Part shown: positions 18,506 to 60,116 of the stretch, one piece after another | Position numbering within the stretch: the stretch's first letter is position 1 | How the letters are laid out: each line of letters opens with the position of its first letter | NCBI RefSeq assembly: GCF_000002985.6 | Contig: NC_003282.8 | Span: 992,001-1,056,000 of the forward strand | DNA: 64,000 nucleotides | Source: Caenorhabditis elegans | Taxonomy: Eukaryota > Nematoda > Chromadorea > Rhabditida > Rhabditidae | Direction: 5' to 3' | The notes under the pieces: model-generated | Told to the model about the DNA's origin: nothing | The model's input: only the letters and a program-made list of their open reading frames with translations | Database searches by the model: none | Translations under genes and position numbers: made by a program

Positions 18506-20431
18506 ATGGATATGCAAAATCTAGTGAACAATTTAAAAAGTGCTGCCCTACAAATCGGCGAGACCTTCACCCCAGTGCTCCGAGAGTCAAAATTCCGTGA
18601 AACCGGAGTTCTAACACCGGAAGAATACGTGGCGGCCGGCGATCACCTCGTCCATCACTGTCCCACGTGGAAATGGGCCGGCGCGTCGGATCCGTCGAAA
18701 ATTCGCACGTTTTTGCCGATTGATAAGCAATTTTTGATTACGAGGAATGTTCCGTGTCACAAACGATGCAAACAAATGGAATACGACGAGAAATTGGAAA
18801 AAGTACGGCGGAAAATCTGGTTTTTTTTTTCATAAAAAATGCTATTTTTCAATGAAAAACTGGAAAAATGGGCCCAAAAGTTCATTTTTGTTAATTTTTT
18901 GGCGTAAAAAATTTTTTTTTCGGACTTTTTGTATGAAAATGCCAGATTTTTTGCATTTTTTAGTAAAAAACTAGAAAAATTGGTTGTTATAAATTTTTTT
19001 TGGCGTAAAAACTTATTTTTTCGAAAGTTTTGCATGAAAATTGCCAGATTTTTTTTTCATTTTTCACCGAAAAACTAGAAAAAATTTGCAGTGGCGGTGT
19101 ACGGTAGCCGCTAAAGTACGCAAACACCGCGGCGCCAGAATGCACCATTTTTTCCCAAATTTTATTTTTTTTTACCGTAAATACTGCATTTTTGCAAAAA
19201 TTTGACGAAAAACTTGAAAAGTCTCGCAATTTTCTGCAAAAAATTGTATGGAAAAAAAGCTTTTTTTTCTCGTAAAACTACATTTTTGTCTAGAAACAAT
19301 ATTTTTGACTGAAAACTTAGATTTTTTGAACTAAAATCATTAAAATTGTCTTTTTTTCCCTAAAAACGAAAAAAATGTGTCAAAAATCAGTTAATTTTGT
19401 AGAATCCCCGTGAAAAAAGCTGTAAATTTCAACATTTTCTGGAAAATTTCGCTAAAAACCACAATTTTCCCCTAAAAAGTCGATATTTCCAGATAATCAA
19501 CGAAGAAGACGGCGAATATCAAACCAGTGACGAGACGGGATGGGTCGATACTCATCATTATGAGAAGGAACACGAGAAAAATGAAGAAAAAGAGGTAAAA
19601 ATATCGATTTTTGCCTTAAAATTTGAATTTCCACCCGGTGCTTGGGGTACGGTAGTCGCCAAAGTACGCAAACACCGCGACGTAAAAATTTATTTATCAA
19701 AATTAGACATTTTTATCCCAAAAATCGTGATAAGACCTGTTTTTCAGAGGATATAAATGGAAAATCATCATTTTTCGGCCTAAAATCAGCGGTTTTATAC
19801 TTTTTGCCCCTAAAATCCGTGATTTTTTTCGCACTAATTCTTCAATTTTTTCCAGCAATCAACTGCTCCACCACCAGCTGCCCCAGAGGACTCTGACGAC
19901 GACGACGAGGAGCCGCTGGATCTGGATGAGCTGGGCCTCGACGACGACGAAGAGGATCCCAATCGATTTGTAGTTGAGAAGAAGCCGCTGGCCGCCGGCA
20001 ACGATAATTCGGGAGAAGTCGAAAAAGTTCGGACCTATGATTTGCACATTTGCTATGACAAGTATTATCAGGTATCTCCCTGATAAGCTGAAATTTCTGG
20101 AAAAAAAAAATCAAATTTCCAGGTTCCCCGGCTCTTCCTGATGGGCTACGACGAGAACCGGCGCCCGCTGACCGTCGAGCAAACTTATGAGGACTTTTCC
20201 GCCGATCATTCCAACAAAACGATCACTGTTGAAGCTCATCCGTCTGTCGATCTCACAATGCCCACCGTTCACCCGTGCAAACACGCCGAAATGATGAAGC
20301 GGCTTATCAATCAATATGCAGAGTCTGGAAAGGTGCTCGGTGTGCACGAATATCTGTTTTTATTCTTGAAATTCGTGCAGGCGGTCATTCCGACTATTGA
20401 GTATGACTATACTCGTGCTATTAAATTGTAA
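18506..20431 (+). CDS. atg-3: Autophagy E2-like conjugating enzyme ATG3
   Basis: Four exons, all phase 0: 18506-18802, 19493-19594, 19856-20071, 20123-20431, giving 307 residues (human ATG3 has 314). The N-terminal amphipathic start and the block [20 protein letters not shown]...TWKWAG are typical. An acidic insert (about residues 140-170, [23 protein letters not shown]) is the flexible region that meets ATG7 and ATG12-ATG5 in other species. The core [20 protein letters not shown] and the active-site cysteine C257 in VHPCKH follow. ATG3 moves Atg8/LGG-1 from ATG7 to phosphatidylethanolamine (family knowledge). An AATAAA lies at 20555-20560. Confidence 0.97.
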
Positions 20432-20787: not shown

Positions 20788-23700
20788 ATGACCGACGGAT
20801 CGATGGACATCGACGCGATGCTCGAGGGAGGCCTTGAGATGGCGAAAAACGTAAGCTCACCCATTTTCAGGCGATTTTCAACGCTCCATGTGCCAATTTT
20901 TTTGCAGGACAGATCACAAAGTCGTCAAAGATCGCCGGCAAGATCGAATCGTTCGAGGTTAGTGCAAAAAATGGAAAAACTCCTAGAATTATTTTATTTG
21001 TTAACCATTTTTGTTCAAAAAATTAGTTTTTGGGTGAAAATTCTCAATTCAAAGCTATGTAGAGTGCCGTTTAGACCGTCGAGAGTCCCCATTCAATCAG
21101 ATGTCGACTGAAATTCGCCGAAAATCGCCGAAAAACTTGGGTTCGTTGCCCCCGGTGTATTTTTGTTCCAGGCTCTTCCTCCTACGGCGGCACTCACTCT
21201 TCAATCCCCTTTCAGGCGCACATCGACTGGCGAAAAACGCCGAAAAACACCAGAAAAACCACGGGGACATTGAAAAAAAAAAAGATGGAAAAAGAGAGAA
21301 AATTCGAAAAATGCTCAAAAAAACGTTTCAGATCCCGATCAAAAGACAGGAAAAGCTCGTCACGCCGTTCCAGAAGCCGTAGCCGTGATCGACGAGGTGA
21401 TCGAGGTGATCGTCGACGATCGAGGAGCCGGAGCAAGGATCGTCGCACCACTCGGAGACGCTCACCGAGCCGTGAGCGAAGACGAAGCCGTAGCAGAGAT
21501 CGTGGAGCACCGAGAAGACGCTCGAGGCAAGGAATTGAGAAGATTTGGAGGGGGAAAATGAGATGGAGAAAAGTGGAGATTTCTTGCAGATTTTCTTCAA
21601 GCTCGCCAGAATTTCTGGAAAAGCACACAATTTTTGGCCTGAAAATCGATTTTTGAACGAATTTATTTGCATTTTCCTCGAAAAATTCAGATTTTATTCA
21701 ATTTTTAGAGGATTTTCATTTAAAAATCTATAAAAATCCTGTTTTCCCGCTGAAATTTCGATTTTTTAACTTTTTCGTCCAAAAATTCATGGTTACCTGA
21801 AAAAAATAGATTTTTAAGGAATTTTTAGTCGATTTTCCCCGAAAAAAAGTCGAGTTTTTTTTGATTAAAAATGAAAAATGAAAAATACAGTTAAAATTCC
21901 CCAATTTCTGAGATTGTAACTGGAAAAACCACGAAAATTCGCCTTAAATCGAATTTGATCTTCTGAAAATCCTGTTTTTCCGAAATTTCTCAAAAATCGT
22001 CATTTGTGAACTAAAAAACAGTGAAAATTGCGTAATTTCTGTGAATTTTCTCGAAAAATTGAAGTTTTACCGCTAAAAATAAGGTTTTAACGAGTTTTTA
22101 GCTTTAAGCATCTGACAATTACTCAATTTTTCGGGAAATATCCTTTTTTTTTTCATTAAAAAATGGGGTTTTATTGAAAAATCGCTGCAAATCTCCCATT
22201 TTCAGCGAGATTTTTAAAAATTCAAATTTTTTGCAGAACCCGATCTCGTGACCGTCGACGCTCTCCACCACGTCGTCGTGATCGCCGGACTCCGCCGAGA
22301 CGTTCACCAGGAAGAAGAAGCCCGCCACGAAGTATGGGAAAACCTGAAAATTGATTTAAAAAATCGAAATTTTCTAGCTAAAAGTGGTCCAAAATCGCAA
22401 TTTTCTAGCTAAAAATCGCTAAAAATCTGTAAATTCGCTCTAAAGTTTGGGAAGTGCAAAATTTTCGAGCTAAAATTTGCTGAAAATCGAAATTTTCTAG
22501 CTAAAAGTTGGCGAAGAACGACGGAATTTCGGTCTAAAGATTACAAAAAGTTGGAAATTCCAGTCAAAACCTACTGAAAACTGGTTAAAAACATAAAAAT
22601 GCCCAATTTTCCACAAATTTTTTTAAACAGATTTTCTGGAAATCTGCATTTTCAGCAAGTTTTCGGCCAAAATTTCAATAATTTCACCCCTTTTAAGCGA
22701 AAAATTCATATAAAAAATATGAAATTTCTCTAATTTCATGTCTTTTAGAGAATTTTCAGCCTTTTAATCAATTTTTAAAAGATTTTCACTGAAAAATCAA
22801 TGAAAATCCTGTTTTTTACAGCGGAATTTCAATTTTGTGGACATTTTTTCTCGAAAACTTCCAAAAAATGCCGAAAAAAGCGATTTAATCGAATTTTTAA
22901 TTAAAATTTTTATAATTTTCCGGAAAAATACTCGAAAAATCCAAATTTCCAGTCAAAACAATTGATTTTTTAAAATTAAATTTCCATAAAAACCTCTAAT
23001 TTTTCCCTCAAATTTTACCGAAAAATTTATGAAAAATTCTCTCAAAATTTCGCGAAGAATAGCTGAAAAAACCCCAATTTTCTCAGAAGAAAACTAATTT
23101 TGAACGAATAATTCAAAATTTTCTTCAATTTCACTCGAATTTTCGCAAAAAAAAATCCCAGTTTTCTTAAATTTCAGTTAGAAATTTACCATTTTTCCCG
23201 TAAAAATACTCTAAAAACCCCCAATTTCTCTTAAATTCACTCAAAAAATTTCCCGAGAAAATTTATGAAAAATTTAAAATTTTCCAATTTTCTCAACAAA
23301 AAAAAACTCAAAAAAAAAAAAAAAATGAAAACCTTCAATTTTCTTCAATTTCTTTCAAATTTTTTTGCGAAAAATCGCTGAAATCCTCCATTAATTTAGT
23401 TCAAAATTTCCATAAAAATCTCTAATTTCTCTCAAATTTCAGGCCGTCTTCCAGGACCCGAACGCCGTGACGTCATGCCATTCAATCCACGTCACTCGCC
23501 GCCTAAAAACGCGAAACTGGAATTAACAGCAGAAGAAAGAGATCAACGGACCCTTCTAATCATGCAAATTGCCCGTGACACCCGTCCACGTGACCTCGAA
23601 GAATTCTTTTCAGCCGTCGGAGCTGTTCGTGACGTCAGAATTATAACCGATTCGCGGACTGGTAGATCAAAAGGAATTTGCTATGTGGAATTTTGGGATG

Positions 23701-26700
23701 AAGAATCGGTTCCACTTGGATTGGCACTAAATGGACAACGTTTAATGGGCGCTCCATTGCAAATTCAGAGAACTTGCGCTGAACGAAACCGCGCCGCGAA
23801 TAGTTCGGTGGCGTCTACGTTGGGATTTGTTGCACCCGGGAATAAGGGTCCTACGCATGTTTTGGTGGAGAATTTGCACCCGAAAATCGATGAAAAAATG
23901 ATTAGAGACATTTTTGAGTCGTTTGGACGAATTGAGAAGATTGATTTGGAGGTTGATAGTAATCGAGAGAATCGAGGATTCGCTACGATTACGGTAGGGT
24001 TTAAATTGAGAAAAAAGGAGTGAAAAATCGAATAATTTAAGAAAAATCGTCCAAAATTAGAAAAAATCCGAAAAATTCACGAAACATTGTCAAAAATTAA
24101 TGAAAATCTAAGAATTCTGATTAAAAACGCTCCGAAATTAGTAAAAATCTGGAAAATTTACGAAAAACTCTACAAAAATTCAAGAAACATTGTCAAAAAT
24201 TAGTGAAAATCTAAGAATTCTGATTAAAAATGCTCCGAAATTAGAAAAAATCTGGAAAATATATGAAAAACTATACAAAAGCAGTAAAAATCTCAAAATT
24301 CTGATTAAAAACGCTCCGAAATTAGTAAAAATCCGGAAAAAAATCGAAAAATTGGAGTAAAAACGCTCTGGTTGGAGCAATTCCACTCCAAAATTGAAAT
24401 TTTCCTGAAAAATGTCCTATTTCGAGCCATAATGTTTGAAATTTCGCTGAAAAAAATTCAAATTTTTCTTCAAAAATGTTCAACTTTAGCGCCAAACTTT
24501 TGTAAAAATTAAAAAATATATATTGTCGTTTTTTCGTAAATTTTGCATCGAAATTTCTAAAAATTGCAAAAAATGTCGATAATTACCCAAAAACTCAAAA
24601 AATCTTATTTCAAGCAAAAAATAATAGAAAATGGTAATTTTCAGTGAAATTTCACGAATTTTTCATCGAAAAATTTCGAGAAAATCATCATTTTTCAGTT
24701 CCGAAACTCTGAAAATGTCAAATTTCTTGAAAAATTTCGAATTCTCAAGAAAAATTGAATTAAAAAAGTAATTTTCATTGAAACCTCTCAATTTTTAACC
24801 CAAAAATTGTAGAAAAACATCATTTTTCAGTGGATTTTCACAATTTTTAACCCAAAAATATAATAAAAAATCATGAAATTTCACAATTTTTAACCCAAAA
24901 AATACTAGAAAAAAACCATTTTTACTGAAATTTCTCAATCTTTAACCCAAAAATATAATAAAAAATCATGAATTTTCAATGAAATGTCACAATTTTTTAA
25001 CCAAAAATTCAAAAAATCATCAATTTTTTCAGTTCCGAAACGCCGACGACGCCCAAAAATCTTGCGAGCAACTGAACAATTTCGAGCTCGCCGGCCGATG
25101 CATCCGTCTCTCCATCAAACAAGAATCCCAAGCTCCAGCAGTAAAGAAAGAAGAAGCTTCAATTCATCAGAGATCCCTAGACGATGTAGGCGATCGTCAA
25201 GGCTTCTCCCTAGGCGCAGGCGGCCGACAACAGCTCATGGCAAAGTTGGCTCAAGGCACCGGCTCAGGAATGGAGCTAACAGCGTCGGCTCAGATGGCTG
25301 CTCAACACGCTGGACACTCACAAATTCCATCAATTGCTACACAGTGTTTCCTTTTATCAAATATGTTTGATCCGTCGAAAGAGACTGAACCAGCATGGGA
25401 TCATGATATTCGAGAAGATGTGATTGAGCAGTGTCTGGCTCACGGTGGAGCACTTCATGTATTTGTGGATAAAGGCTCAGAGCAAGGAAATGTCTATGTA
25501 AAGTGTCCATCGATTGTGATTGCACATCAGGCAGTTAGTGCGCTCCACGGAAGATGGTTCAGTGGAAAAGTTATCACTGCTAACTATGTACCTGTTAATT
25601 CATATCATGACTTGTTCCCGGATGCAGTACATGCTAGAATTGTGCTCACGACGCGTGGAGCTGCTCCGGTGGTTCCTATTGTACCTATGGTTCCAGTTGT
25701 GCCACCTCAAGGAATCGCAAATGTAAGGATGGTTTGAATATTCGGGCAAATGGGTTTTTAAAAAAATTCGAAATATAAAAAAAAACCGAAAATTTTGATG
25801 TAAAATTCATTTACCCCGAAAAAATTGCAAAAATCCATCGAAAATTTTCGAAGTTTCAGCTAAATTTCCCATTTTTCCGTGAAAAAACTCTGCAATTTGC
25901 AATTTTTCAGAGTTACCCAGGATTTTATGATTAAAAAATTGACTACAAATGTCGGAATTTGTTGGAAAAAAGTACTAGAAACTTAAGATTTTTGAGAAAG
26001 AATTTTCCGAAAAATTTGGAAAAATCGGGTAAAATCGGAAAAAATTCGAAAAATTGAAAAAAGAAAACAATAACTAAAAAATTCTGGGTTTTTGGAAATT
26101 TTGATGTAAAATTCTTTTTCCGGGTAAAAATCGGCAAAAATCCCTCAAAAATTTGGAAAAAAAGGCTTTAAATCCAAAATTAAATGCCGAAATTCCCTTT
26201 TTTTTGTATAAAAAACTCAAAAATTTTCAATTTTTCAGGATTATGGAGGATTTTATGATCAAAAAATTGACTACAAATGTCGGAATTTGTTGGAAAAATT
26301 AGAAAAAGTACCAGAAAATTAGAGATTTTTCAAGAAATTTCCGAAAAATTGTTTTAAAATTTGGAAAAATCTGATAAAACCTGAAAAATTTTGGTTTTGA
26401 AAATTTTGATGTAAAATTCATTTTCCCCCGTAAAAATTGCAAAAATCCCTTAAAAATTTGAAAAAAAAAATGCTCAAGATTGGCAATTTTTAGCTAAATT
26501 TCCCATTTTTCCGTGAAAAAAACTAAAAAATTTCGAAAAAATTCACTACAAATGTCTGAATTTGTATGAAAAATTTTTTAAAAAAACCGAAAAAATTTCG
26601 ACAGATTCGTGAAAAAAATGACATAAAATTTGGAAAAATCGGGTAAAACCGGAAAAAATTCGAAAAAAAGAAAAAAATAACTAAAAAATTCTGGCTTTTT

Positions 26701-28062: not shown

Positions 28063-28743
28063 CACGTGGTCTCGCTGGCTGTCTCAAAATTGATATTTTC
28101 TCGCGGACGAGAAAACGTGAAAAATGAGCAAAATGGCCTTCAAAACGGTGGAAGAGGAGTATTCCTCGTCCCCCCCCGTTCACGTAGTCATCTCGGAGAA
28201 GAAAATAGCGTTTGAAAGAAGAGACGCAGACGACGAGACGGTATCATTCAGGGGTGTGCGGCAAATCTCAAAATTTGCCGAGCACGGTAAATTCGGCAAA
28301 TTCGGCAAATTTGCCGTGCTTAACAAACTCGGAAAAATTTTGATATTTTTTATGTTTTTTGGAGCACCAAAACTACTGAATTCTTAACACACATCTGGTT
28401 TCAGAATAAGTTCCGCGTAGTATGTCTGTTTAAGCATCAAAATAGCTCAATTTTGTGTCATTTTACTAAATTTTTGGCTAAAAAATCAATAGTTTTAGTC
28501 AAAATTATACTGTCAAATTTTTGAGGTGTGCGGCAAATTTCGAAATTTGCCGAGCTCGGCAAATTCGGCAAATCTACTTTTTTGAAATTTGCCGAGCTCG
28601 GCAAACGGCAAATTCGGCAAATTTGCCGCACACCCCTGGTATCATTCCTCGTCTTCACTTGTCCGAGTGAAGTTCACCGACAATATTCCCAATGGGGCGC
28701 GTTTTCATCAAAATTATGTAAAGAGACAGCCAGCGAGCACGTG
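28063..28743. mobile_element. CACGTG-ended element, disrupted by a hAT MITE
   Basis: Terminal inverted repeats CACGTGGTCTCGCTGGCTG and CAGCCAGCGAGCACGTG. The flanking 6-bp duplication is GAGACT on the left (28057-28062) and, beyond the second hAT MITE, GAGACT on the right (29285-29290). An intact relative lies inverted at 38509-38789. This copy is split by a hAT MITE at 28249-28638, and a second hAT MITE lies exactly at its right end. Confidence 0.85.
28249..28638. mobile_element. hAT-type MITE 1 (GGCAAATTCGGC family)
   Basis: 390 bp, ends CAGGGGTGTGCGG and CCGCACACCCCTG, flanked by the exact 8-bp duplication GTATCATT (28241-28248 and 28639-28646). The interior is built of GGCAAATTCGGCAAATTTGCCG units. 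The 8-bp duplication and CAGGG ends are hAT hallmarks. It has no transposase, so it is non-autonomous. Same family as the copy at 36388-36812. Confidence 0.93.
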
Positions 28744-28748
28744 GAGAC

Positions 28749-29281
28749 CAGGGGTGTGCGGATAATAGCCGAATTAGCCGATCGACTGATTCGGCTAACT
28801 CGGCTAATATTAGCCGAATTATCCGTTAGTCGAATTTTGTACCAATTAGTCGAGTTAGCCGTCTGCCGACTTTTTGACAGTTCGGCTAATCCGAAGTTAT
28901 CCGTTAGCCGATTTTGGCCGTTGTTAGCCGAATTCGCCGATCGGCTATTTCGGCTAATTCCACTAAAACATTTTTTTGGAAAACAAAATTTTGTGAAATT
29001 GTATGATTTTTTCCTATTTGAACAGTCGTTCATCACTGAATTTGCTCAATAACAATGAAAAAAGTAACCCAAAACCTGAATTAACAGAAAGAACGAAAAA
29101 AAACTTAACCAGATGAATATTTTCCGAATTAGCCGAATTAGCCGATTTGACCGATTGATTTTAGCCGAATTAGCCGTTAGCCGAAAATTTTGAAATTAAC
29201 CGTTAGCCGAATTATTTTAAAAAAATCGGCATTAGTCGATTTATCCGTTAGCCGAAAAAATCGGTTATCCGCACACCCCTG
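28749..29281. mobile_element. hAT-type MITE 2 (GCCGAATTAG family)
   Basis: 533 bp, ends CAGGGGTGTGCGG and CCGCACACCCCTG, flanked by GTGGAGAC on both sides (28741-28748 and 29282-29289). The interior consists of AATTAGCCGAATTAGCCG-like units. Its target spans the right end of the CACGTG element and that element's own target duplication, so it inserted later. Confidence 0.93.
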
Positions 29282-29290
29282 GTGGAGACT

Positions 29291-30060
29291 CCCTACCAAT
29301 GGTGAAGCACAACCGCTCATCTCTTCTCGATTATTGGTTTTCGGAAGGAGAAGAGTTGTTACACTCACCATTCCCGGGAGCCAGGGCTGTTCAGGAATAT
29401 GAATACTATTAATAGGCCTAACCAATGATGTAGTGGAGCCCGCTGTCTTATCCCAACACAGATCGTCACTGGAGAATAAGAAGGAAGGCTACACTATATC
29501 ATTGGAAGTCTGTTGGAGATACTGAATCACTTTTGCCGGACGGTTATAAACCCTGTGGCGCAAGGGGGGGGGGGGAGGGGGGCGTGACCTGGTCTCGCCA
29601 CGATTTGTTACAACGGGAAAAAGTGTCTGTAGTGTGCAACCAATGGCCAGACCGACGCCGCCCCTTCAATTTCTTCATCGAAGTAGAGACCTTCCTGGTA
29701 TTTAACCTCCTTAGATTCTCCATTATCAACACATTTCCAGTCCTTTTCCTATTCGGGGACCCGCCAGTGGTAAGTGTACCCGAATCTGATATCCTATCAT
29801 CTGAAAAAGGATGCAGTTTCTGGTATACTTCACCATTGGCTGGGTCTCTTAGCACTGCACTTCACCATCAGGTGTTTCGTAGCATTCTGCCATAACCTTC
29901 TCTATACCCATTCTTATTCCTAAACCATGACTTCCCAATATGGTAAGTGCAATCGCAGTTCTTCTTCCGAGAGAATCAGATCTATGGAAAAAGGCCACCG
30001 ATTTCACTGCACGATTGGTAGGAGTCAAATACCACTGCTGAAACTTTGAGCCCGCATTGG
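29291..30060. repeat. Array A of ~80-bp hairpin units
   Basis: Four hairpin units at about 29297-29375 (inverted relative to the others), 29425-29503, 29764-29839 and 29935-30028. Each has complementary ends of about 18-20 nt: CCAATGATGTAGTG pairs with CACTATATCATTGG in the second, and GCCAGTGGTAAGTGTACC with GGTATACTTCACCATTGGC in the third. A second internal stem differs from unit to unit. Spacers are 40-260 bp. Relatives form array B at 34562-35290. I do not recognise the family; it could be a small foldback element or a cluster of hairpin RNAs. A G-tract lies between units two and three. Confidence 0.65.
29564..29582. repeat. G12-A-G6 tract
   Basis: A run of twelve G, one A and six G on the plus strand, in a non-coding setting. 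Such monoguanine tracts are known in C. elegans to be deletion-prone without the DOG-1 helicase and can fold as G-quadruplexes (established knowledge). The exact length is also prone to sequencing error. Confidence 0.9.
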
Positions 30061-30087
30061 ACTATTCAGGTCAAGTGAGATTCTTGA

Positions 30088-30574
30088 CAGAGGTGTGCGG
30101 ATAACCGATTTTTTCGGCTAACGGATAAATCTGCTAATGCCGATTTTTTTAAAACCGGCTAACGGCTAATTCGGCTAATATCAGTCATTCAAATCGGCTA
30201 ATTTTCGGCTAATTCAGCTAATTCGGAAAATATTCATTTGGTTAAGCTTTTTTTGTCCATTCTGTTAATTCAGGTTTTGGGTTAATTTTTTCACTGTTAT
30301 TGAGCAAATTCAGGGATGAACGACTGTTCAAATAGGAAAAAAATCATACAAATTCACCACATTTTGTTTTCCAAAAAAATATGTTAGTTGAATTAGCCGA
30401 AATAGCCGATCGGCGAATTCGGCTAACATCGGCCAAAATCGGCTAACGGATAACTACGTATTAGCCGAACTGCCAAAAAGTCGGCTAACGGATAATTCGG
30501 CTAATATTAGCCGAGTTAGCCGAATTAGCCGATCGGCGAATTCGGCTAAATCGGCTATTATCCGCACACCCCTG
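30088..30574. mobile_element. hAT-type MITE 3 (GCCGAATTAG family)
   Basis: 487 bp, left end CAGAGGTGTGCGG (one mismatch to the family) and right end CCGCACACCCCTG, flanked by ATTCTTGA (30080-30087 and 30575-30582). The interior matches MITE 2 in inverted orientation (TTAGCCGAATTCGGC-type units). Inserted just past array A. Confidence 0.92.
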
Positions 30575-30747
30575 ATTCTTGAATAGCCTTCTCGTGCTCA
30601 AAGCTTGTATTGGCACACTTTTCACAATAGCTCGATTTACAGATTAATTTCAAGTTCACCATGTTAATCTGCTCCGGATAGGCTCTTCTCTTTCAAATCA
30701 CAGTAATTCTGTCCCCGCTTCTTCCAGGAACTGAAATAAATGCATTT

Positions 30748-32194
30748 CAAATTTTAGGACAATATCAATTATCACGAAATACAGTTATTTCATCAGTGGT
30801 TTTCGAAAATTTCAAAAAATAAAATTTTTTTGAAAATTTTTGAAAATTCGAAAAAATTTAAAAAAATCTATTAAGTTTGGAAAAAGTTACGTATCTGAGC
30901 CAAAATGGAAAATTATATGTAGAAATTACATGAAATAGTGAAACATAGTGTTGTGCATCATTTTACAACAATATCATATTTGTCACGACGCGGCACCTGG
31001 AATTGAGGCACCTGGTAAATAGAAGTGCTTCATCTACAAAGCGCTTCAATTTTGGCGATGCTCCTGCTCACATATGGTCTCAAAAAACTTTTGATGGCAA
31101 TTTTTAGAATCTCCAGTAGTATCTTTTTACTAATCGAGTTAGCATATACATTTGTTTCTTCCACTGCCGAAGTCCATGATCGTTGCAGCCAGCATAGTGC
31201 AGGAGAATAAGTGCCTTCCCGATCTTCGTAAAGCTGGAACTCGACCAGTGAATTTTTAAACTGGACAAAAGTGGACTGAAATAATCTTTGTCTAGTCAGG
31301 AAGCCTATCAATTATTGCCTGTTCACGAAAAAAATCATTAGATGAGAAGCAGTCAAAAGCAATCATTTGGTACCTTTTTTACTGAGCGCATAAAAAAAAA
31401 ACTAAGCACAGGTTTCGCCGCATTTTAGATGTTCGTTATGGATTTGAAATTGTGGGTTTTATGAAAATCAAGTCTACTGATAACAAAAACTTTAAAAGAA
31501 GTGTTTAAAATCTGTAAAAAATTCTATACCTGTCTACAGGGCAAACAAAAACTAACGTCATCGGTTCATGGCAGTAGAGGACGATGCCTGATTATTTGGC
31601 TCGTTTCAATCTAATAATTTTTTCGTGAACAGGCAATAATTGATAGGCTTTCTGACTAGACAAAGATTGTTTTAATCCACTTTAGTCCAGTTTAAAAATT
31701 CACTGGTCGCATTCCAGCTTGATCGGGAAGGCACTTATTCTCATGCACTGCGCTGGCTGCGACGGTCATGGATTTTGGCACTGGAGGAAATAAATGTGTA
31801 TTTTAGCTAGAATAGTGAAAAATGAAAACTGGAGATTCTAAAACATGCAAATTAAAGTATTTTGAGACCAGGTGTGAGCCAGAGCATCGCCAAACTCAAC
31901 GCGCTTTTTAGATGAAGCACATCTATTTTCCAGGCACCTCCGTTCTAGGTACCACGTCGTGATCAACCTGATATTGTTGAAAATTGATACACAAACCCAT
32001 GTTTCACTATTTCATGTAATTTCTACATATAATTTTCCGTTTTGGCTCAGGTACGTAACTTTTTCCAAACTTCATAGATTTTTTCATTTTTTCGAATTTT
32101 CAAAAAGTTTCAAAAAAATTTATTTTTTGAAATGTTTGAAAACCATTGATGAAATAACTGTATTTCGTGATAATTGATATTGTCCTAAAATTTG
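30748..32194. mobile_element. 1.45-kb foldback element
   Basis: Arms of about 590 bp (30748-31342 and 31610-32194) are inverted copies with scattered differences. Outer ends are CAAATTTTAGGACAATATC and GATATTGTCCTAAAATTTG. The 270-bp centre has no recognisable coding sequence. No convincing target duplication was found. Small open frames in the arms (for example 31030-31311) mirror one another and are not genes. Confidence 0.85.
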
Positions 32195-33403
32195 AGATAA
32201 AACTAAGTGAAATGAAGAAAGTTATCCATGAAAAACTGTAACTATGAATCATGTACGAACGCTTCCCAGTGGGCATCGTGATGTTTGAGAAATGAAATAA
32301 AGCCCACTAAGTGGTCCAGGGTACTGTGGGGGTGCTATTTATAACACCATGATGGCAGAATTATGAATCATGAGGGTATTGACGAAATTTTGTAGAAGTG
32401 AGCATTTGGGATTACTCTATAACAACGCTGAAAGCAATATTGCAATTAATACATACGTTAGTGATATCGGTATATTAAATTAATATCTAATTAATATGAC
32501 ACGTTAGTTGTAGTATTACGGATTCTGAAACCGATTATGAAATCGAACGCCCGAATTCCTCAATCCTTAAAATAATTCTTATCACGCCCACCTCTGTTGA
32601 CTGTCCCATGTATTTTTTGATATCTAGATTCACTGCACCATCAGGTGTTTCGGTTAAGTCATTAATTCCAATATAGAGGTGTAGCTACTTGCGTGGTTTC
32701 ACTAAATCATTGGTAAAAGTCGAGTTTCACTTTGAAAACGACTTCAACTATTCTGAGCAAGAAAAATGTTTCAATAGCCGCATAAATCTTTTCGTGGTTC
32801 GGTTTCCAGAACAGCTTTAGTATAGATATTGCTCAAAACTCTGTGAGTACAAACGAACACTCAAAAGTAAACAGAGGTAAAAATCTAGGTGCCATGATGA
32901 AGTGTATAGCGTAGCAGCTGTTGATCCGGGTATCTGAATTAGGGTTCAATAATTTTGCAGGATTCATTAATACACAAGTGTAACGTGATAATAAGGAATT
33001 AAAGTATGCATTGGATTTCCCATTTTTCCAATAGTCACGTCATTTGCCCACATGATGCAAAAAAGAGGGGCCATGGCACGGTGAAATCATGAATCATGAT
33101 ATGGAATTAACAAACAAAGCGCGCTAAGCGGCACTGGACAGGGAGTAAAAATTGTTTGGTACTGTAGGAAAGATGTCAATTCACACGTAGTTGCAAGATG
33201 AAATTGGGCAACAGATGGAGGTGACAACTGAGCACAGAATCAAGCAGAGTTATCACGTTTGGGTCCCAGTGTGTGATCATAGGAAATTATAGTGCTATAA
33301 CACCCAATTCTGATGCACAGAACTGTGATTTCTGTGCGCGAAACTCCAGCAATACACGGTGTTCGGACTTCGATAAGACACTCCGAGATTAGTTATCGTC
33401 TAA
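32195..33403. other. Non-coding stretch between foldbacks
   Basis: No gene seen. Notable pieces: several ATGAATCATGA motifs (about 32245, 32365, 33090) and a sequence CACTGCACCATCAGGTGTTTCG (20 nt core ACTGCACCATCAGGTGTTTC, about 32630) shared with array A (about 29860), suggesting ruined copies of the same repeat. Confidence 0.4.
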
Positions 33404-34191
33404 CACTGCAACTTTTTCCTCACGAGGGACGAGGAAAAGTGGTTTCTAGGCCATGGCCGAGGGGTCGACAAGTTTCAGCGGCCATTTATCTTGCTTTGTT
33501 TTCCGCCTGTTTTCTTTCGTTTTTCACAGCTTTTTCCCGTTTTTTCTTATTAAAACTGATAAATAAATATTTTTTGCAGATGCTAAAACAATTTCCAAGT
33601 GAAAAAATTATGTATTCAGTGGGCAAGCAGCGGTGAAAGTGGGCATTGTAATATGATGGATTACGGGAATACAAAACCTAAACTTTTTCTGAAGATACAT
33701 ATGCTGCTTAGATGCTGAAATTACCTGATATTCACAACGAGACCGCTGAAAAAGTTTTGAGGTTTCCAAAATTCAACTTTTTTGGTGAAAAAGTCGAGAT
33801 TTTCGCACAAAAAGTTGAATTTTGAAAACCTCAAAACTTTTTCAGCGGTCTCGTTTAGAAAATCAGGTAATTTCAGCATCTAAGCAGCATATGTATCATG
33901 TTTCAGAAAAAGTTTAGGTTTTGTATTCCCGTAATCCATCATTTTACATTGACCACTTTCACCGCTGCTTGCCCACTGAATACATAATTTTTTCACTTGG
34001 AAATTGTTTTAGCATCTGCAAAAAGTATTTATTTATCAGTTTAAATAAGAAAAAACGGGAAAAAGCTGTGAAAAACGAAAGAAAACAGGCGGAAAACAAA
34101 GCAAGATAAATGGCCGCTGAAACTTGTCGGCCCCTCGGCCATGGCCTAGAAACCACTTTTCCTCGTCCCTCGTGAGGAAAAAGTTGCAGTG
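33404..34191. mobile_element. 788-bp foldback element with TCTAA flanks
   Basis: Ends CACTGCAACTTTTTCCTC and GAGGAAAAAGTTGCAGTG, flanked by TCTAA on both sides (33399-33403 and 34192-34196). Arms of about 380 bp are nearly identical and meet at a short centre near 33800. The two mirrored open frames in the arms (33486-33674 and 33921-34109) are the same sequence read twice. A truncated relative is at about 59690-59865. Confidence 0.88.
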
Positions 34192-34561
34192 TCTAAACTA
34201 GTCAATTGTAACCGCCCGGTATATACAGTTTGCCAAAAATTAGCCAAGGATAGCTGGGAGCAAAAAATGTCGATTACGTTGCCAAAATTCCTATGCACTT
34301 TTTCAACCGTCACCATAATAGAGAGATCCGCCATACTGCCTCCAATAAAACAATTTTCCATTTTTTTTCCAACGAGGTGTTTCTAGTTTTTCAAAGATTG
34401 GCCTCAGATTTTTGCCTGAAAATCAGAAATTTCCTTCCCGGGGCCAACCTCCTGCCGGCATAAGAATGAATCACGTAAACTCCGCCTCCGCTCCGATTGG
34501 TTTATAAACAGCCAGACACTTTTCCGTTATCATATCACTGCCTCTTCCTCTACACTCTACT

Positions 34562-35290
34562 GAGGAACCCGCCAGTGGTAAGTGTACCCGGATCTGATAT
34601 CCTATCACCAAAAAGAGGATGCAGATTTTGGTACACTTCACCACTGGCTGGGTCCCTGAATAGGAGCACTGATGGTGAGTGTATTGGTCTTTTTGATATC
34701 GACGGAGTACTGATATCAAGGACGCGATCCACTAAACCAACAGGTGCTCCTTGTCATACTTATTCCAAAACCATGGCGTCCTATGGTGAGGTGTAGCCTG
34801 GCCGTTTTACTCCAGCAAGCAGCTATGGCACGTAACGTGGTGCGAAAGTGTTCCATTTTGGTTTGATCTTCGAAAAATGCGGGAGAAGAGGCGCAGACTT
34901 TTCAACTGATTTCGCATGGTTAAGAGTGCGGACGTCACATTTTCCTGGGGGGAAAAATTCCCGCTTTTTTTGTAGATCAAACCGAAATGAGACAGCCTGA
35001 CACCACGTGTGGAATAAGATGCAAGGCTCCACTACACTATTGGCTAAGGTCTCTGTGCTATTCGTATTTCCATCCAACAACCATGACTCTCAGGAATGGT
35101 GAGTGTAACCACTCTTCTCCTTCCGAGTATTGATTATCGAGAAGAGATCAGCGGTTACACTACATTATTAGTAAGAGTCCTTATTCATATTCCGGAAAAA
35201 CCATGCCTCCCAATGGTGAGTGTAACCGCACGTCTTGTTTCAAAACTCAATATATGGAAAAAGACCACCGGTTACACTACATTATTGGTT
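34562..35290. repeat. Array B of ~80-bp hairpin units
   Basis: Five units at about 34571-34648, 34664-34743, 34780-35038 (split by a MITE), 35092-35170 and 35210-35288, with a period near 115 bp when uninterrupted. The best consensus stem is CCAATGGTGAGTGTAACC against GGTTACACTACATTATTGG, enclosing a second stem such as CTCTTCTC / GAGAAGAG. Each 5' arm contains GGTGAGTG or GGTAAGTG, which looks like a 5' splice site, often just after ACCATG plus about four codons. It is related, partly in inverse order, to array A 5 kb away. Function unknown. Confidence 0.65.
34840..35012. mobile_element. ~170-bp MITE inside array B
   Basis: Ends ACGTGGTG and CACCACGT enclose an inverted pair CATTTTGGTTTGATCTTC / GTAGATCAAACCGAAATG and GCGGGA / TCCCGC. 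It interrupts the third hairpin unit of array B. A relative lies at about 37050-37245. Confidence 0.7.
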
Positions 35291-35947
35291 GGAGTCTGAT
35301 TAATATTGCAATAATCGATGATGGTAGAATTGGAGTAGTGGATGTGGGTAAATTACTGAAACTTACAGATTAGGTCCCTAAAAACTAACAAAAATAACAA
35401 AGAAAAGATTGGAAAATTTTGTTAAGTGAGAGAAAAACCAGCTCAAACTTAGCAATAAGGACTAAAGGGACTGCATTTCAGGTTCGCGCGCAAATGATTT
35501 CACGCCGGAGGAATTCAAATTTTGAAGAGATATAGAACATCGATTGATTAAGCAGCCGACACTTGCCTGGTGGATTTTTGTGACAAAGTAACGTTAAAAA
35601 CAACACACAAAACATGGTGCATCGACTACGAACAATGACAGGATAATCGGAAATGTCATTAGAATTTTTCATAATTTCAGAAAATTAAGCTAAACATCCT
35701 TTGTATATTCATTTACGCCAATTTTTTGCGTCAATTTAGCATTTTATCAGCTAAAAACTCCCGAAATTTTATATTTTCAGGACAATATAAAAAATCATTT
35801 TATTTCAGGCAAAAAGTGAACAAAAAAATGAAAGAGAGTTTGAAAGAGGATCAAAGATCGATATTTTCTCAATCAGAATAGAATTGAAAAAATTTCACCG
35901 GAAACGACGAAAAATGGCACAGAGACAACCAACATTTCCAGAACTCC
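35291..35947. other. 3' flank of the ABHD14-like gene
   Basis: No coding exon seen on either strand. AT-rich, with one GTGCATCGAC motif (about 35612) shared with the TTGACAACTTTTTGATA repeat family. Confidence 0.4.
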
Positions 35948-46752: not shown

Positions 46753-49008
46753 TTAATTCCTATAATCCAAATAATTAGCAATTCTCATTCCACCGTACTT
46801 CTCCACACACTTTTCATGTATAAAGCTATATTCACAGGCTTTCAACTCAAAACCATTAACCTCATATGAAAACAATCGATAATTTAAGTGACCAATTTCC
46901 CTGAGCAATTTCGCGTGTTCCTGTGCTCCGCCGTGGAGCTCCAAGTAGATTTGACATACTTCGTATTTCTCAAGGAATGGAATTAAACACGTCAACTCGG
47001 CGCCTTCAATATCGATTTTTAGAATTTCAATATTGGAAACATTAAAGTGCTTGGCAAGATCATCAATTGTGTATTTGCTAGTTGCTGGATCGGTTGCCAC
47101 GGAGATTAGAGCTTTTTTCGAGGTTCCACGGATTTTTGAGTAGGTTTGACGGGTTCTGTCGTTTTGGTCAGCCTGGAAGAGCTTTTTGGAATGGTAATTT
47201 TCTCGGGAAAACAAGTTTAGTGTATGAAATTTGGCCCTAATTGGCAATTGTAAAAAAAATTTTAACGTTCTTTTGTTGAAAAGGACCAATTTTTGAAGTC
47301 AATTTTCAGGTTCCTAGATTATTTTTGGCAGATTTTTCAATAAGAGTTAAAATAAAAATTATATATACATAAATTTTAATACATTTGACGAAATTTGAAT
47401 AGAAAAAATCGAAAAAAAAATCGAAAAAAAATTATTTTGGATGTCGAATTTCAAGTGAATTATTGCTTTTTGAGTGGTTTTAAGAAAATTTTCAAACCAT
47501 TTTTTTCGAAAGCTCCATTTTAGTATTTATATTTGATTTGTTTTCTTAATAGTTTTAATAATTTCAGGTAATTTTTGTGAAATTTTCAAAAAATTGGAGC
47601 TCTGTGAATTTTGTCTGACTGTCTAAAAATCTCAGTTTAATCTCAGTTTAAGTAAAATTTAAAGTTTCTGTTTCAATTTTTTTCAAGCTTTCAGTTTTAA
47701 TTTTAATTACCCACCGCATCAAAACCATATAAAATATTTCGATTATCTGTAAGCTTCTGCCATTCCTCCTCGAAAGTTATCCAATTGTTGAGACCTAGCG
47801 AGAACATTCTGCAATTTTTATTTTTATATTTTTGAAAGCTTCATAATTTTTGAAGTGCTAACTGTATTTAAAAGTTTTTAACTAACGAATTGTAGAAAAT
47901 GTTATGCTCTACGAGTTGTTAGTCGACAACTTTTTAATAGCCCTTACCCCCGCGAAGTTACAAGTGTTCAAATATTTCAGTGCAACAGAGATGGGGAGAA
48001 ACAGGCGACGATGGTGTCTTTGAACGCCTGTAACTTCGTTGAGGCCAAAGCTACAAAAAAGTTTAAAACCAACAAAATGTAGCAAATTTTATTTTCTACA
48101 GTTTAACAGTTAACGTTTTTTGTCCAACTTCTCTAGTTTTCAAGATATTCGACTTTTTAAAACTCACACAGAATTGTTCGGGCACTTCCACGGATTGCAA
48201 ACCCATTTTCCGCCGTCTCCAACTGTTCCGATGCGTACTTTTTCAGGACAAAAGACCTCTGGTCCCATGGCTCCATAGAGCAAGTAAAACTCTGTTGGCT
48301 TGAAGATCTGGGCTAGAGTTCTCTTGCGAAGAGGTGCCTGGGCTATTGAGAATGCTTTCATTTTCTGGAAAAAATCAATATTTTGTAGGAATTTTTTCTG
48401 CGAATTTATCATTGGAGAGCATTTTCATTGGGGAGAAATTCAAATTTTTAATTCTATTTTGCTCTTTTCTAACGTTTTTACGATGTTTACTTACCTCAAA
48501 GTGTTGCTCAAAACTGTCTCCGGCTCCCTGACCAAATTTGGATTCGAAATTCCGTAAAATCTCCATTTCAGCATCCAATTGGCTCCGGATTTGAGCCAAT
48601 TGTTGGTCCACACTGTTATTGTTTGAATTTCTGTCCAATAGTGATGTGTAGAACTCAGTTAGTTGTGCTGAAAACGCAAAAATTGTTAAATTAGCATTAG
48701 AGCACCTTTGCATAGGCGAAAATTTGAACAAATTTCTCAACAGAGCGCAAATGCAGTGTTGGCCAAAAATTTGGAATTTTATTGAAATTTACTGATTTCT
48801 GAGTATTTCGGTGACTTTAAACTGAAAATATTGAATTTTTCCGTGCCAAGTGCTAAATTTGGACCATTTTTTTACTGAATTTCATTGGAGCGCAGTTGCA
48901 TAGTATTTTGAAAAACTCACTGCTTCCGTAACTATTCCCACTCCAGAGCATAAAATTTAGCAAAGTAATCACTATTACTATAGCTAGAATGATAAACTGA
49001 TTGGCCAT
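46753..49008 (-). CDS. Membrane-anchored FkbM-type methyltransferase
   Basis: Five exons on the minus strand: 49008-48921, 48667-48495, 48364-48168, 47808-47715, 47172-46753, giving 323 residues. An N-terminal hydrophobic segment (about residues 4-22, [17 protein letters not shown]) is followed by a Gln/Glu-rich stem, so a type II membrane protein or signal anchor is likely. The catalytic domain shows [36 protein letters not shown] and the key [12 protein letters not shown] (the FkbM KIDxEGAE motif), then [10 protein letters not shown]. Members are SAM-dependent methyltransferases, often of unknown substrate; many worm paralogues exist (family knowledge). The last exon's acceptor at 47173 is chosen because it joins GFDA to ADQND in frame; an earlier acceptor cannot be ruled out. 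A trans-splice acceptor lies six bases before the ATG. Confidence 0.85.
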
Positions 49009-54010: not shown

Positions 54011-57000
54011 ATGTCTGATAACTCAACTAGTATGCCAAACCCGGAAATTGATAATATTTATGCATCAATTATTATATTTTTGGTAAGTTGCCAAGGATCT
54101 CAGTCAGTTGGCAAAAATTTTATTGTAAATATTTCAGCTATCATTTTCCGGCTGCATATTCAATTTGCTTGCTGGGATCGTTGTTTTAAAGAACCCCATA
54201 CTGAAAAATGCATTTGGTGCTCTATGTTTTAGTCATACCATTGCAAATTTTGGGGTTCTATTTGTATTCTGCACATGGGTCACGCCGACCACTATTATGT
54301 AGGTTTTTGGAGGGTTCATCTCGGATACTAAGATAGGTAGCAAAAAAGTGTAAACTGGCACAATGTAGGAAATTAAAGTTGCAATGTTTTGTCAGTATAC
54401 AACGTTTGATAACTTGTAAGTCAGTGGAGTTAGAGACGTTTGAATGTTGCAGGGTGCATGGGAGAAAAGGTTTTCTGATGATAATTTTCAAACGCGTGTA
54501 CCTCGACTGTTAGTGAAGATATCAAAAAGTTGACAACTATTGAAATGTAGAAAATCAAATTTGCTCTATTTTGTTAGTTGACAACTTTTTGATAACTTGC
54601 GAGGCGGCGGAGTTATGATCGTTCGAAAAGTGAAAGGTGCGTGGGACAAAATATATCGCCACCTACCATTGCTCACTTTCCAACGCATGTATTTCCGCGG
54701 TTAGTGAAGATATCAAAAAGTTATCAACTGGCAAAGTGTAGAAAATTAAATTATCCACATTTTCCTAGTTGGCAAATTTTTTATAGCTCCTACAATTGCT
54801 AAGTTATCAGCGGAAGTAGTAGGAAGTCTACTAAACTGTCTATGCCAATTTGAGCTGAGCTCTCTCAAAAACTAGTAGAGCTATCAAAAAGTTGTCAACT
54901 CAAGAAATGAAGGAGATTAACTTTTCCACATTTTGTCATTTCACAACTTTTTAAATACGTTTACTTCGGTACAGTTACAAACTTTTATAAAAACCCTCAA
55001 ATTTTGACATCAAAAAAGGTTCAAATTTTAAAAAATTGCCCCCGAAATGCTTACAGGTGGTTTTTGACTAGCAAAACGTCTAGAAAACCTTGAAACTCGA
55101 ACAATAACCTACGTAAAGGAAAAAAACCTAGGTCTTATAAAAATCGATAAAATATCGATTTTTATTCCAGTCAATACAAATACACCGAGCTCACATTTGG
55201 CAAAATCCTTGGCCAAATCAATATTCTTTTCTGGAATGCCTGTTGCTATTCGCACCTCGTAATCTCGTCAAATCGATTTTTAACAATTTCAATGCCAACT
55301 AAAGTTTCTTCACTATTCAACTACCGTAACACATGTTTCATCATCGCTTTTGTATGGTCTATGGCTATTGGTCACGTGATTCCGTATTTCTGGCGGGAAA
55401 CTTGCTACGTGGCATATGACCCGGTTAGCTGGACGTGGGTGTTTGGAGATACTCCGTGTGGATATATTATTACAACTTATACGGATTATTATACAAGTGT
55501 AGCCATTTTTGTAGTGATGAGTACGCTGGATTTTTCCACTTTTGTAAGTTTTTATGGTATTTTTTTGTTGAAAAAATTGAAAAAAATGGTGGAATTCATT
55601 TAATTTTTTTAAAATCATTTTCTGTTTCTTTAAGGATTTTTAAAAATTTCTGTAAAACTTTGTTTCCGTTTTCCTGTAGTTTCGGCTTTTTTTGGTCGAC
55701 TTTTGATCGATTTTCGATTTTTTTTGCACTTTCTTCAAAATTTCTAAATCCAAAATTGATAATTTTACATGGAAATAAATCGGCAACTCGACAATTAAAA
55801 TAATTGTATTTTTTTAATCGTGACTAGCAAATCTGCGATTTGCCAGGCTTCGCAGTGGGGTGAGGCGTAGGTCGTAAAAGAGACAAATTTCTATTTCTAT
55901 TTAGTGTTTAAGCCAAAATATTATGGTTTTTCCAAATTTGAAAAATAACGAAAAATGAAACATTTCCCTTTTTGGAAAGATGTCAATGCTCAAAACTTCT
56001 GTGAATGTGCTGAAGTTTGTCAAGACCTGCCAAATTTAGTTTAATATTAAATTTAGAAATAACAGTCTCCATTTTTCAAATCGCGCTTAACGGTTGTCCA
56101 AACAAACCGGCAACTCGACAATTAAAACAATTGTATTTTTTATTTGTGAAATAGAAAAAAATTGTTGTTTTCCAATTTACAGAAATTAAAAATGCTTCGG
56201 AATAAATTGGGAACTCGGCAATAAAAAACAATTTGCAAAATAAATTAAGAAAAGAATAGAACTTTAAAATTATTTAAAAATTTTTTTGAAAACTATGTCA
56301 ATTTTTTCCACAATAAAAGCGCAAAATGTAGAAAAAAAACGATTAAAAATAATTCAAATTCGAAAATCATTTAAAAATAACGTTTTAAAAAACACCATAA
56401 ACAGCAAAATTTCGAAAAAAAATCTGAAAAAATTTCCAATTTTTTTTCTAATTTTTGACAATTTCCAGACAATGTTAGTACTGTACCGTCGAAAATCCCA
56501 TCTTACCTCAAACGACGAAACACGGAGACGTCGCCGTGTGGAAATTCGATTTTTCACACAATCCTGCCTTCAGGGGATCTTATTTTTCTACGAAGTCTTT
56601 AATTTCTACTATATTGTCACTTTAAACACGAACCAATGGTTTGTATTTATGACGTCAACGTTTGCATGGGAATTATGTCATTGTTTAGATGGGTAAGTTC
56701 TTGGCAACACATGGGGAGAAATATGCAGAAATTAAAAAAAATCCGGGTTGGAAGTTTTTTTTTGAACAAAAAACAGATGATTTTCAACATTTTCAAGCCA
56801 AAATTTGTTAATTGTCGAAAAAAAATCATGTTAGATCAAATACTGACGAATTTTGAAATTTTTTGGCATATTATCAGAGGGGTGGACGTCAATTGCCGGT
56901 TTGCCAATTTGCCAGAAATTTCAATTCACGGAGTTTGCCGGAAATTTCAGTGTCGGCAATTTGCCGATTTGCCGGAAATCTTCAATTCCGGCAATTCATC

Positions 57001-59218: not shown

Positions 59219-59269
59219 CTGAAAATTTATAAATGATTTATGTTCCTGTTTTTAATGGAAAAAAACGAA

Positions 59270-59597
59270 TTTTCTCGATTTTTATCGATTTTTTCATACA
59301 AAAGTTCCAAAAAAAAAAATTTTGACAACTTTTTCAGAAGTCTGGTTATGAAAATAAGGTGCAATTAGCATTGACACAGCTTTTTTATTATGTTTGGAAA
59401 AAAGTTTGGGGTTTTTTTTTTTCATTTGGGATCTGATTTTATCGAATTTTCTCGATTTTCATCGATTTTTTCATACAAAAGTTCCAAAAAAAATTTTTTG
59501 ACAACTTTTTCAGAAGTCTGGTTATGAAAATAATGTGCAATTAGCATTGACACAGCTTTTTTATTATGTTTGGAAAAAAGTTTGGGTTTTTTTTTGG
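59270..59597. repeat. Recent tandem duplication, ~150 bp x 2
   Basis: About 59273-59422 and 59445-59597 are almost identical, each with ATCGATTTTTTCATACAAAA, CTTTTTCAGAAGTCTGGTTA and AGCATTGACACAGC, ending in a T-run. The copies differ by a few bases and homopolymer lengths. Located just upstream of the pseudogene. Confidence 0.85.
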
Positions 59598-59689
59598 TTT
59601 AATCGATAATACTTACTGTGTGACCTTCCGCAGCTACTAGTCGACCCAAAAATTCTTTCTTTCACGTGAAAATCGTTTCAAAATCTGTA

Positions 59690-59870
59690 AAATGTATTTA
59701 TTTGTTAGTTTTAATGAGAAAAAACGGTGAAAATTGAAGAAAAACTGAAGAAAACAAGCGGAAAACAATGCAATATAAATTGCCGCTGAAACTTGTCGGA
59801 GACTCGGCCATGGCCTAGAAACCTTTTTGCCTCGTCCCTCGTTCGAAAAAAGTCGCAGTGGAATGGTGAC
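59690..59870. mobile_element. Truncated arm of the 33404-34191 foldback family
   Basis: Shares CATGGCCTAGAAACC, GCCGCTGAAACTTGTCGG and GAGAAAAAACGGTGAAAA-type sequence with the foldback arms at 33404-34191. Only one arm is present. The rest of 59871-60116 has no identified feature. Confidence 0.75.
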
Positions 59871-60116
59871 AAATCGCCGCTGCGGCCAAGGCAAGATTTC
59901 ATCGCGTCGAGACCCATCGAACACTAAAGGCGATGCGCCTTTAAGCTGGCGGTACGATACTCGCTCCGCTTTCTTGGGGAAAACATATAATTGTTATGAA
60001 AATGAATAATGATAATCTTTATTCCAAATGGCTCAACACGAAAATTGATGCCGACTTTCTTTAAAAGTTTTTGTGCACATATTTTGCATACATGAAAATG
60101 TTTATTCTATTAATAT

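Follow-up and report, generated by a model that had tools for sequence, protein, structure and literature searches.

What are the short hairpins that stand in two arrays within a 64-kb stretch of the Caenorhabditis elegans genome, and what keeps their ends complementary? The stretch, called the window here, is 992001-1056000 of contig C4, and the genome searched comprised 7 contigs (100,286,401 bases). A sequence-only reading had described nine units of about 80 bp in two arrays, and had suggested either selection on RNA structure or a very young foldback family; it could not match the units to a known class. Folding and a genome-wide search were both run, and the nine related units with complementary ends were confirmed, four in array 1 (U1, U2, U4 and U5) and five in array 2 (A to E). 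The length holds for eight of them; unit C occupies 275 bp owing to a dispersed repeat in its loop. Strands were assigned from Rfam and homology, and the description needed correction for U1 and U2, both of which are on the minus strand. Almost certainly, the two arrays are the already described mir-2208/mir-2209 microRNA cluster of C. elegans chromosome IV, each unit being a primary-microRNA hairpin.

When the whole window was scanned with Rfam, four matches exceeded the gathering score (70 bits for both families), and all of them lay in these arrays. Family mir-2208 (RF03318) was matched at 34580-34640 (+, unit A) and 29772-29832 (+, unit U4), and mir-2209 (RF03223) at 35102-35164 (+, unit D) and 29303-29365 (-, unit U1). 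The class that had seemed missing is hence that of microRNA precursors, here with curated models in Rfam and an account in print. Kato et al. 2009 (PMC2718520) reported miR-2209a with a bantam seed, and a male-enriched cluster on chromosome IV that includes miR-2208b and miR-2209c. Small-RNA reads backed their 66 candidates, 24 of which also had star reads; five candidates, miR-2209a included, were tested by reverse-transcription polymerase chain reaction, and all were lower in alg-1(gk214). Later work handles these genes as ordinary microRNAs. An expression table in the excerpted part of PMC8807481 has cel-miR-2209a-3p and cel-miR-2209c-3p, and for this reason we take the 3′-arm (3p) strand as the named product. 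The portion of PMC7567087 available describes higher mir-2208 under simulated microgravity and protection when it is overexpressed, and PMC5085782, again in extract, claims miR-2208 and miR-2209 in Meloidogyne too.

Several points weigh against this identification. Five of the nine units (B, C, E, U2 and U5) gave no match at gathering in the window scan; unit E scored 35.1 bits against mir-2209. In the miR-2209 nomenclature, miR-2209.1 is presumably the same gene as miR-2209a. The excerpt of PMC5322734 finds miR-2209.1 at low levels only, and that of PMC6631683 regards miR-2208a as a false prediction and leaves it out of the altered set. We assign the five sub-gathering units only as hairpins of the same build as the four that match the published families at the same locus, and to neither mir-2208 nor mir-2209. 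Some of them may be uncatalogued paralogues, and one may be a catalogued mir-2209 member. We take mir-2209b to be a name in this family; it was not met in the literature searched for the cluster. No paper on the cluster that was found, in the parts available, lists all nine hairpins.

Each of the eight uninterrupted units folded better than all of its 200 dinucleotide shuffles (z from -3.84 to -9.10; Table 1). Unit C was not counted here; without its insert it forms a 110-nt hairpin of -38.7 kcal/mol. To follow pairing across units, the eight uninterrupted sequences were aligned with MAFFT, which placed the mir-2208 3′ arms out of register, and the covariation test therefore used arms aligned by a 9-base core that was chosen by eye, unit by unit. 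In the 17-pair stem common to the nine units 136 of 153 cells pair, and in the core 74 of 81. When the 3′ arms were permuted among units, the stem total was reached in 7 of 100,000 trials (mean 125.7). With one unit per type, taken in all 16 ways, between 1 and 6 of 120 permutations reached the observed core pairing. On sliding the partner arm, pairing fell from 88.9% to 29-51%.

The sequence-only reading had also pointed to compensatory-looking changes. Two-sided changes occur in 7 of the 17 stem pairs, compared with an average of 2.5 in shuffles, and none of 500 shuffles had as many; one pair shows all four Watson-Crick types (AU 4, CG 2, GC 2, UA 1). One of the examples then given has to be withdrawn: GTGTAGCC/GGCTACAC does not occur within any one unit. 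Units C and U2, read on the assigned strand, have GTGTAGCC/GGCTCCAC with a U-C mismatch, and the only occurrence of GGCTACAC in the region is on the opposite strand of U2. The 29 non-Watson-Crick cells of the shared stem, read on the assigned strand, are 12 G-U, 0 A-C and 17 other, several of them common by descent, so that the events number perhaps ten (counted by eye). Such an excess of G-U over A-C points to RNA, as a DNA palindrome would not favour G-U. In whole-hairpin folds of eight units, 26 G-U pairs were predicted on the assigned strand and 17 on the opposite one.

Some of the folding data are less favourable. Pairing is lost in 3 of the 9 units at each of the two outermost positions and at the innermost one, and in 4 of the 9 at one core pair (columns 14 and 23); U5 retains 4 of 8 lower pairs in the shared register. 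In D and U1 it is the opposite strand that has more predicted G-U pairs, and in D, U2 and U5 that strand is also the more stable. It may be noted, too, that the covariation comes from nine related sequences, effectively five types, with cores chosen by eye. Selection on RNA structure in these units is nevertheless supported, by the two-sided changes together with the 12 G-U cells against no A-C.

That the units form a young foldback family, or one of miniature inverted-repeat transposable elements (MITEs), palindromic as recent inverted duplications and moved as DNA, was the other suggestion of the sequence-only reading, and the surroundings lend it some colour: dispersed palindromic elements abound locally, two of them flanking array 1 and one sitting inside unit C. 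The units themselves behave differently. In the genome searches by BLAST and Rfam, in which only the best candidates were scored and very common words were skipped, no unit appeared outside the locus. BLAST with array 1 and with 34500-34834 and 35011-35300 matched only the other array at E 1, and the mir-2208 and mir-2209 families gave nothing above cut-off elsewhere (66 and 65 candidates scored). Dispersed copies and target duplications are found for the flanking elements and not for the units. The flankers, each with its own target duplication, do not carry the array, and the wobble in the shared stem is strand-biased in the way described above. At the sensitivity of these searches, we consider a foldback origin highly improbable.

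Equally little credence is given to precursors of endogenous hairpin small interfering RNAs (hpRNAs), which would have arisen by inverted duplication of a target gene. Male enrichment of cluster members (PMC2718520) recalls the testis hpRNAs of flies, but BLAST at E 1 gave the arms no match elsewhere in the genome, the stems are microRNA-sized and bulged, and miR-2209a falls in alg-1 mutants (PMC2718520). The arms had also been called splice-donor-like, as would suit mirtrons, that is, short hairpin introns with splice-site ends (GTGAGT...AG). Indeed, GTGAGTG or GTAAGTG forms the 5′ arm in 7 of 9 units, and the 3′ stem ends in TTAG in D and ACAG in B. A mirtron requires an acceptor AG at the end of the 3′ arm, however, and AG is present there only in D and B, TGG being found in the other 7 of 9; the donor likeness looks incidental, and a mirtron origin is scarcely credible. 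No more credible are short coding repeats starting from ACCATG, for although an open frame runs through the hairpin in E and U5 (56 and 40 codons), whose length differences are multiples of three, ACCATG stands at the head of no more than four of the nine units (C, D, E and U5; "many" had been said) and a stop follows after 7 codons in C and 16 in D.

The microRNA assignment also fits the dimensions of the hairpins. The 5′ cut was assumed to fall where AGUGU begins and the 3′ cut three bases beyond ACU. So defined, the precursors of eight units measure 59-67 nt; the terminal loop lies 23-27 nt from the cut, and the lower stem has 11-22 pairs. The worm Microprocessor measures a lower stem of ~16 bp and an upper stem of ~25 bp, according to the excerpted part of PMC9976908; the geometry, with its assumed cut sites, is near this measure, the lower-stem count being variable. 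With the same assumed cuts, all eight uninterrupted units have what is expected of an animal microRNA hairpin, namely stability, a precursor of ~60-70 nt and a further basal stem. The complementary ends would then comprise the lower stem together with the first turn of the duplex. The cuts by Drosha and Pasha would fall beside AGUGU and about three bases past ACU, at sites that we infer, and Dicer would give ~22-nt products to be loaded into ALG-1-type Argonautes, with repression of messenger RNAs via the seed. Activity of B, C, E, U2 and U5, like the targets, is inferred.

No two of the nine predicted 3p products have the same seed. That of unit D, GAGAUCA, we take to be the bantam seed. Compensatory changes may have held the stem while the seed-bearing part drifted, leaving each hairpin with its own predicted seed. 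For the pairs D/U1, E/U5, A/U4 and C/U2, the seed bases kept are 6, 6, 6 and 4 of 7, and those of the 3′ part 10, 11, 12 and 12 of 14, counts that do not show the seed to change faster than the remainder.

The two arrays are clearly related to each other. Unit A is 88% identical to U4 over 94 bases (34564-34657), the E region is 75% identical to U5 over 120 bases, and D plus the 3′ part of C corresponds, with the order inverted, to U1 and U2 (78% over 134 bases). One array is therefore a rearranged duplicate of the other. The cluster would have grown by duplication, array 1 having counterparts of A, C, D and E, with those of C and D inverted. Unit B lacks a full counterpart in array 1. A match of 22 bases near 29858 is seen again at 32631, in a possible decayed remnant between the arrays. 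The fold of this remnant was not significant (19 of 200 shuffles were equally good), and the stretch around it, 32580-33060, gave no second copy in the genome search. A model built from five units (R1) was searched against the window. It recovered its five source units, A, U4 and, weakly, B (17.4 bits, E 0.026), some on both strands, and gave three chance-level stretches (E 0.12-0.3); it missed the middle remnant, and unit C as a whole.

Two further observations concern the arrays. A different strong hairpin that is not a unit (29560-29679, -43.9 kcal/mol, with a long G run) separates the minus-strand from the plus-strand members of array 1. At 34496-34509, some 55 bp upstream of unit A, ATTGG is followed by TTTATAAAC, judged by eye a possible promoter of array 2.

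The mobile elements around the arrays were delimited as listed in Table 1. The two repeats flanking array 1 are 81% identical to each other, in opposite orientation, with CAG...CTG ends and perfect target duplications. Since these duplications are separate, the repeats entered singly and array 1 was not their cargo. An 8-bp duplication presumably fits hAT-type elements. Copies of the right-hand repeat were found on contigs C1-C6 (best 40 of 92 candidates). The element at 28249-28638, with CAGGGGTGTGCGG/CCGCACACCCCTG ends, has its own 8-bp duplication GTATCATT (28241-28248 and 28639-28646), like the flankers. As for the repeat in the loop of unit C, all 79 off-locus matches of the genome search fell in it, at ~34819-35019 (best 40 of 1934 candidates), and on comparing its edges with 6 genome copies and one at 37 kb a target duplication was not evident. 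Between the arrays there is a second large palindromic element at 30744-32198 (arm pairs 83-93% complementary) and a large near-perfect palindrome at 33403-34192 (arms 98% complementary), to which 59637-59993 (-) seems related, by eye, from similar translated frames. Weak Rfam matches at ~33733-33858 to plant and mammal microRNA families were rejected, being below gathering and reflecting the large palindrome.

Table 1. Hairpin units, their predicted 3p products and the repeats around them (positions in the window; fold z against dinucleotide shuffles)
Feature	Position	Strand	Remarks
Unit U1	29292-29376	-	mir-2209-type, mir-2209b or -c by name; Rfam RF03223 89.5 bits; fold z -5.27
U1 predicted 3p product	29303-29324	-	
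Unit U2	29418-29507	-	paralogue of interrupted unit C; R1 72.2 bits (R1 source); fold z -3.98
U2 predicted 3p product	29429-29450	-	
Unit U4	29757-29849	+	mir-2208-type; Rfam RF03318 91.0 bits; fold z -8.05
U4 predicted 3p product	29811-29832	+	
Unit U5	29932-30022	+	paralogue of unit E; R1 78.0 bits (R1 source); fold z -3.84
U5 predicted 3p product	29990-30011	+	
Unit A	34563-34655	+	mir-2208-type; Rfam RF03318 91.3 bits; fold z -9.10
A predicted 3p product	34619-34640	+	
Unit B	34663-34750	+	divergent hairpin of cluster; fold z -5.38; stem register in common with others
B predicted 3p product	34715-34736	+	
Unit C	34773-35047	+	hairpin with repeat splitting its loop; 5′ and 3′ core letters those of U2
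C predicted 3p product	35015-35036	+	
Unit D, mir-2209a	35085-35177	+	Rfam RF03223 92.0 bits; fold z -5.39
D predicted 3p product AGAGAUCAGCGGUUACACUACA	35143-35164	+	predicted seed GAGAUCA
Unit E	35206-35292	+	close paralogue of D; R1 91.4 bits (R1 source); fold z -5.53
E predicted 3p product	35260-35281	+	
Possible decayed unit remnant between arrays	32631-32720	+	22-base match (95%) to 29858-29879
MITE-like repeat left of array 1	28749-29281		8-bp target duplication GTGGAGAC at 28741-28748 and 29282-29289
MITE-like repeat right of array 1	30088-30574		8-bp target duplication ATTCTTGA at 30080-30087 and 30575-30582
Dispersed palindromic repeat, ~175 bp, in loop of unit C	34835-35009		edges compared with those of other copies (see text)

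Elsewhere in the window, ten frames were scanned with Pfam, and three of them had no match. The matching coding pieces lie at 2257-2667, 20087-20431, 23400-25737, 46753-47298, 55151-55603 and 61748-62524; the matches in them are to a RING finger, an autophagy Atg3/10-type active-site domain, an RRM and an RBM39 linker, an FkbM methyltransferase, an Srx chemoreceptor and DCP1. There is a tandem duplication of 176 bp at 59266-59595 (96% matching) and a degenerate hexamer array at 61232-61463 (38.8 copies, 72% matches), whose hexamer we take to be the worm telomere unit TTAGGC.

Known systems offer several comparisons for the mir-2208/mir-2209 cluster. miR-2209a has been placed in the bantam/miR-58 seed family of C. 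elegans (PMC2718520; also the excerpt of PMC5322734), whereas the other eight units lack that predicted seed, U1 having GAGAUGA; the bantam likeness may be convergence. The Drosophila mir-972C cluster is likewise one of clustered microRNAs with rapid seed change, and has "testis" among its keywords (PMC8581666, in part); the present comparison is among paralogues of one genome only and not among species. The mir-64 cluster of Caenorhabditis is another nematode microRNA cluster in which members have been duplicated in tandem and lost (PMC4255771, in extract), but there, according to the same extract, the seed is conserved in all members, as against nine different predicted seeds here.

It is a tentative possibility, which we rate as rather unlikely, that most of the five hairpins below the Rfam gathering score are functional uncatalogued microRNA genes and that the locus is a male-enriched seed generator, in which compensatory change preserves the Microprocessor scaffold through duplication and each copy acquires a new seed, so that nine hairpins have nine seeds. 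The pattern is one of ordinary worm microRNA biology, and some of the hairpins may be absent from catalogues. With its processing stem held and no two predicted seeds alike, the locus is a compact case for how new microRNA seeds arise.

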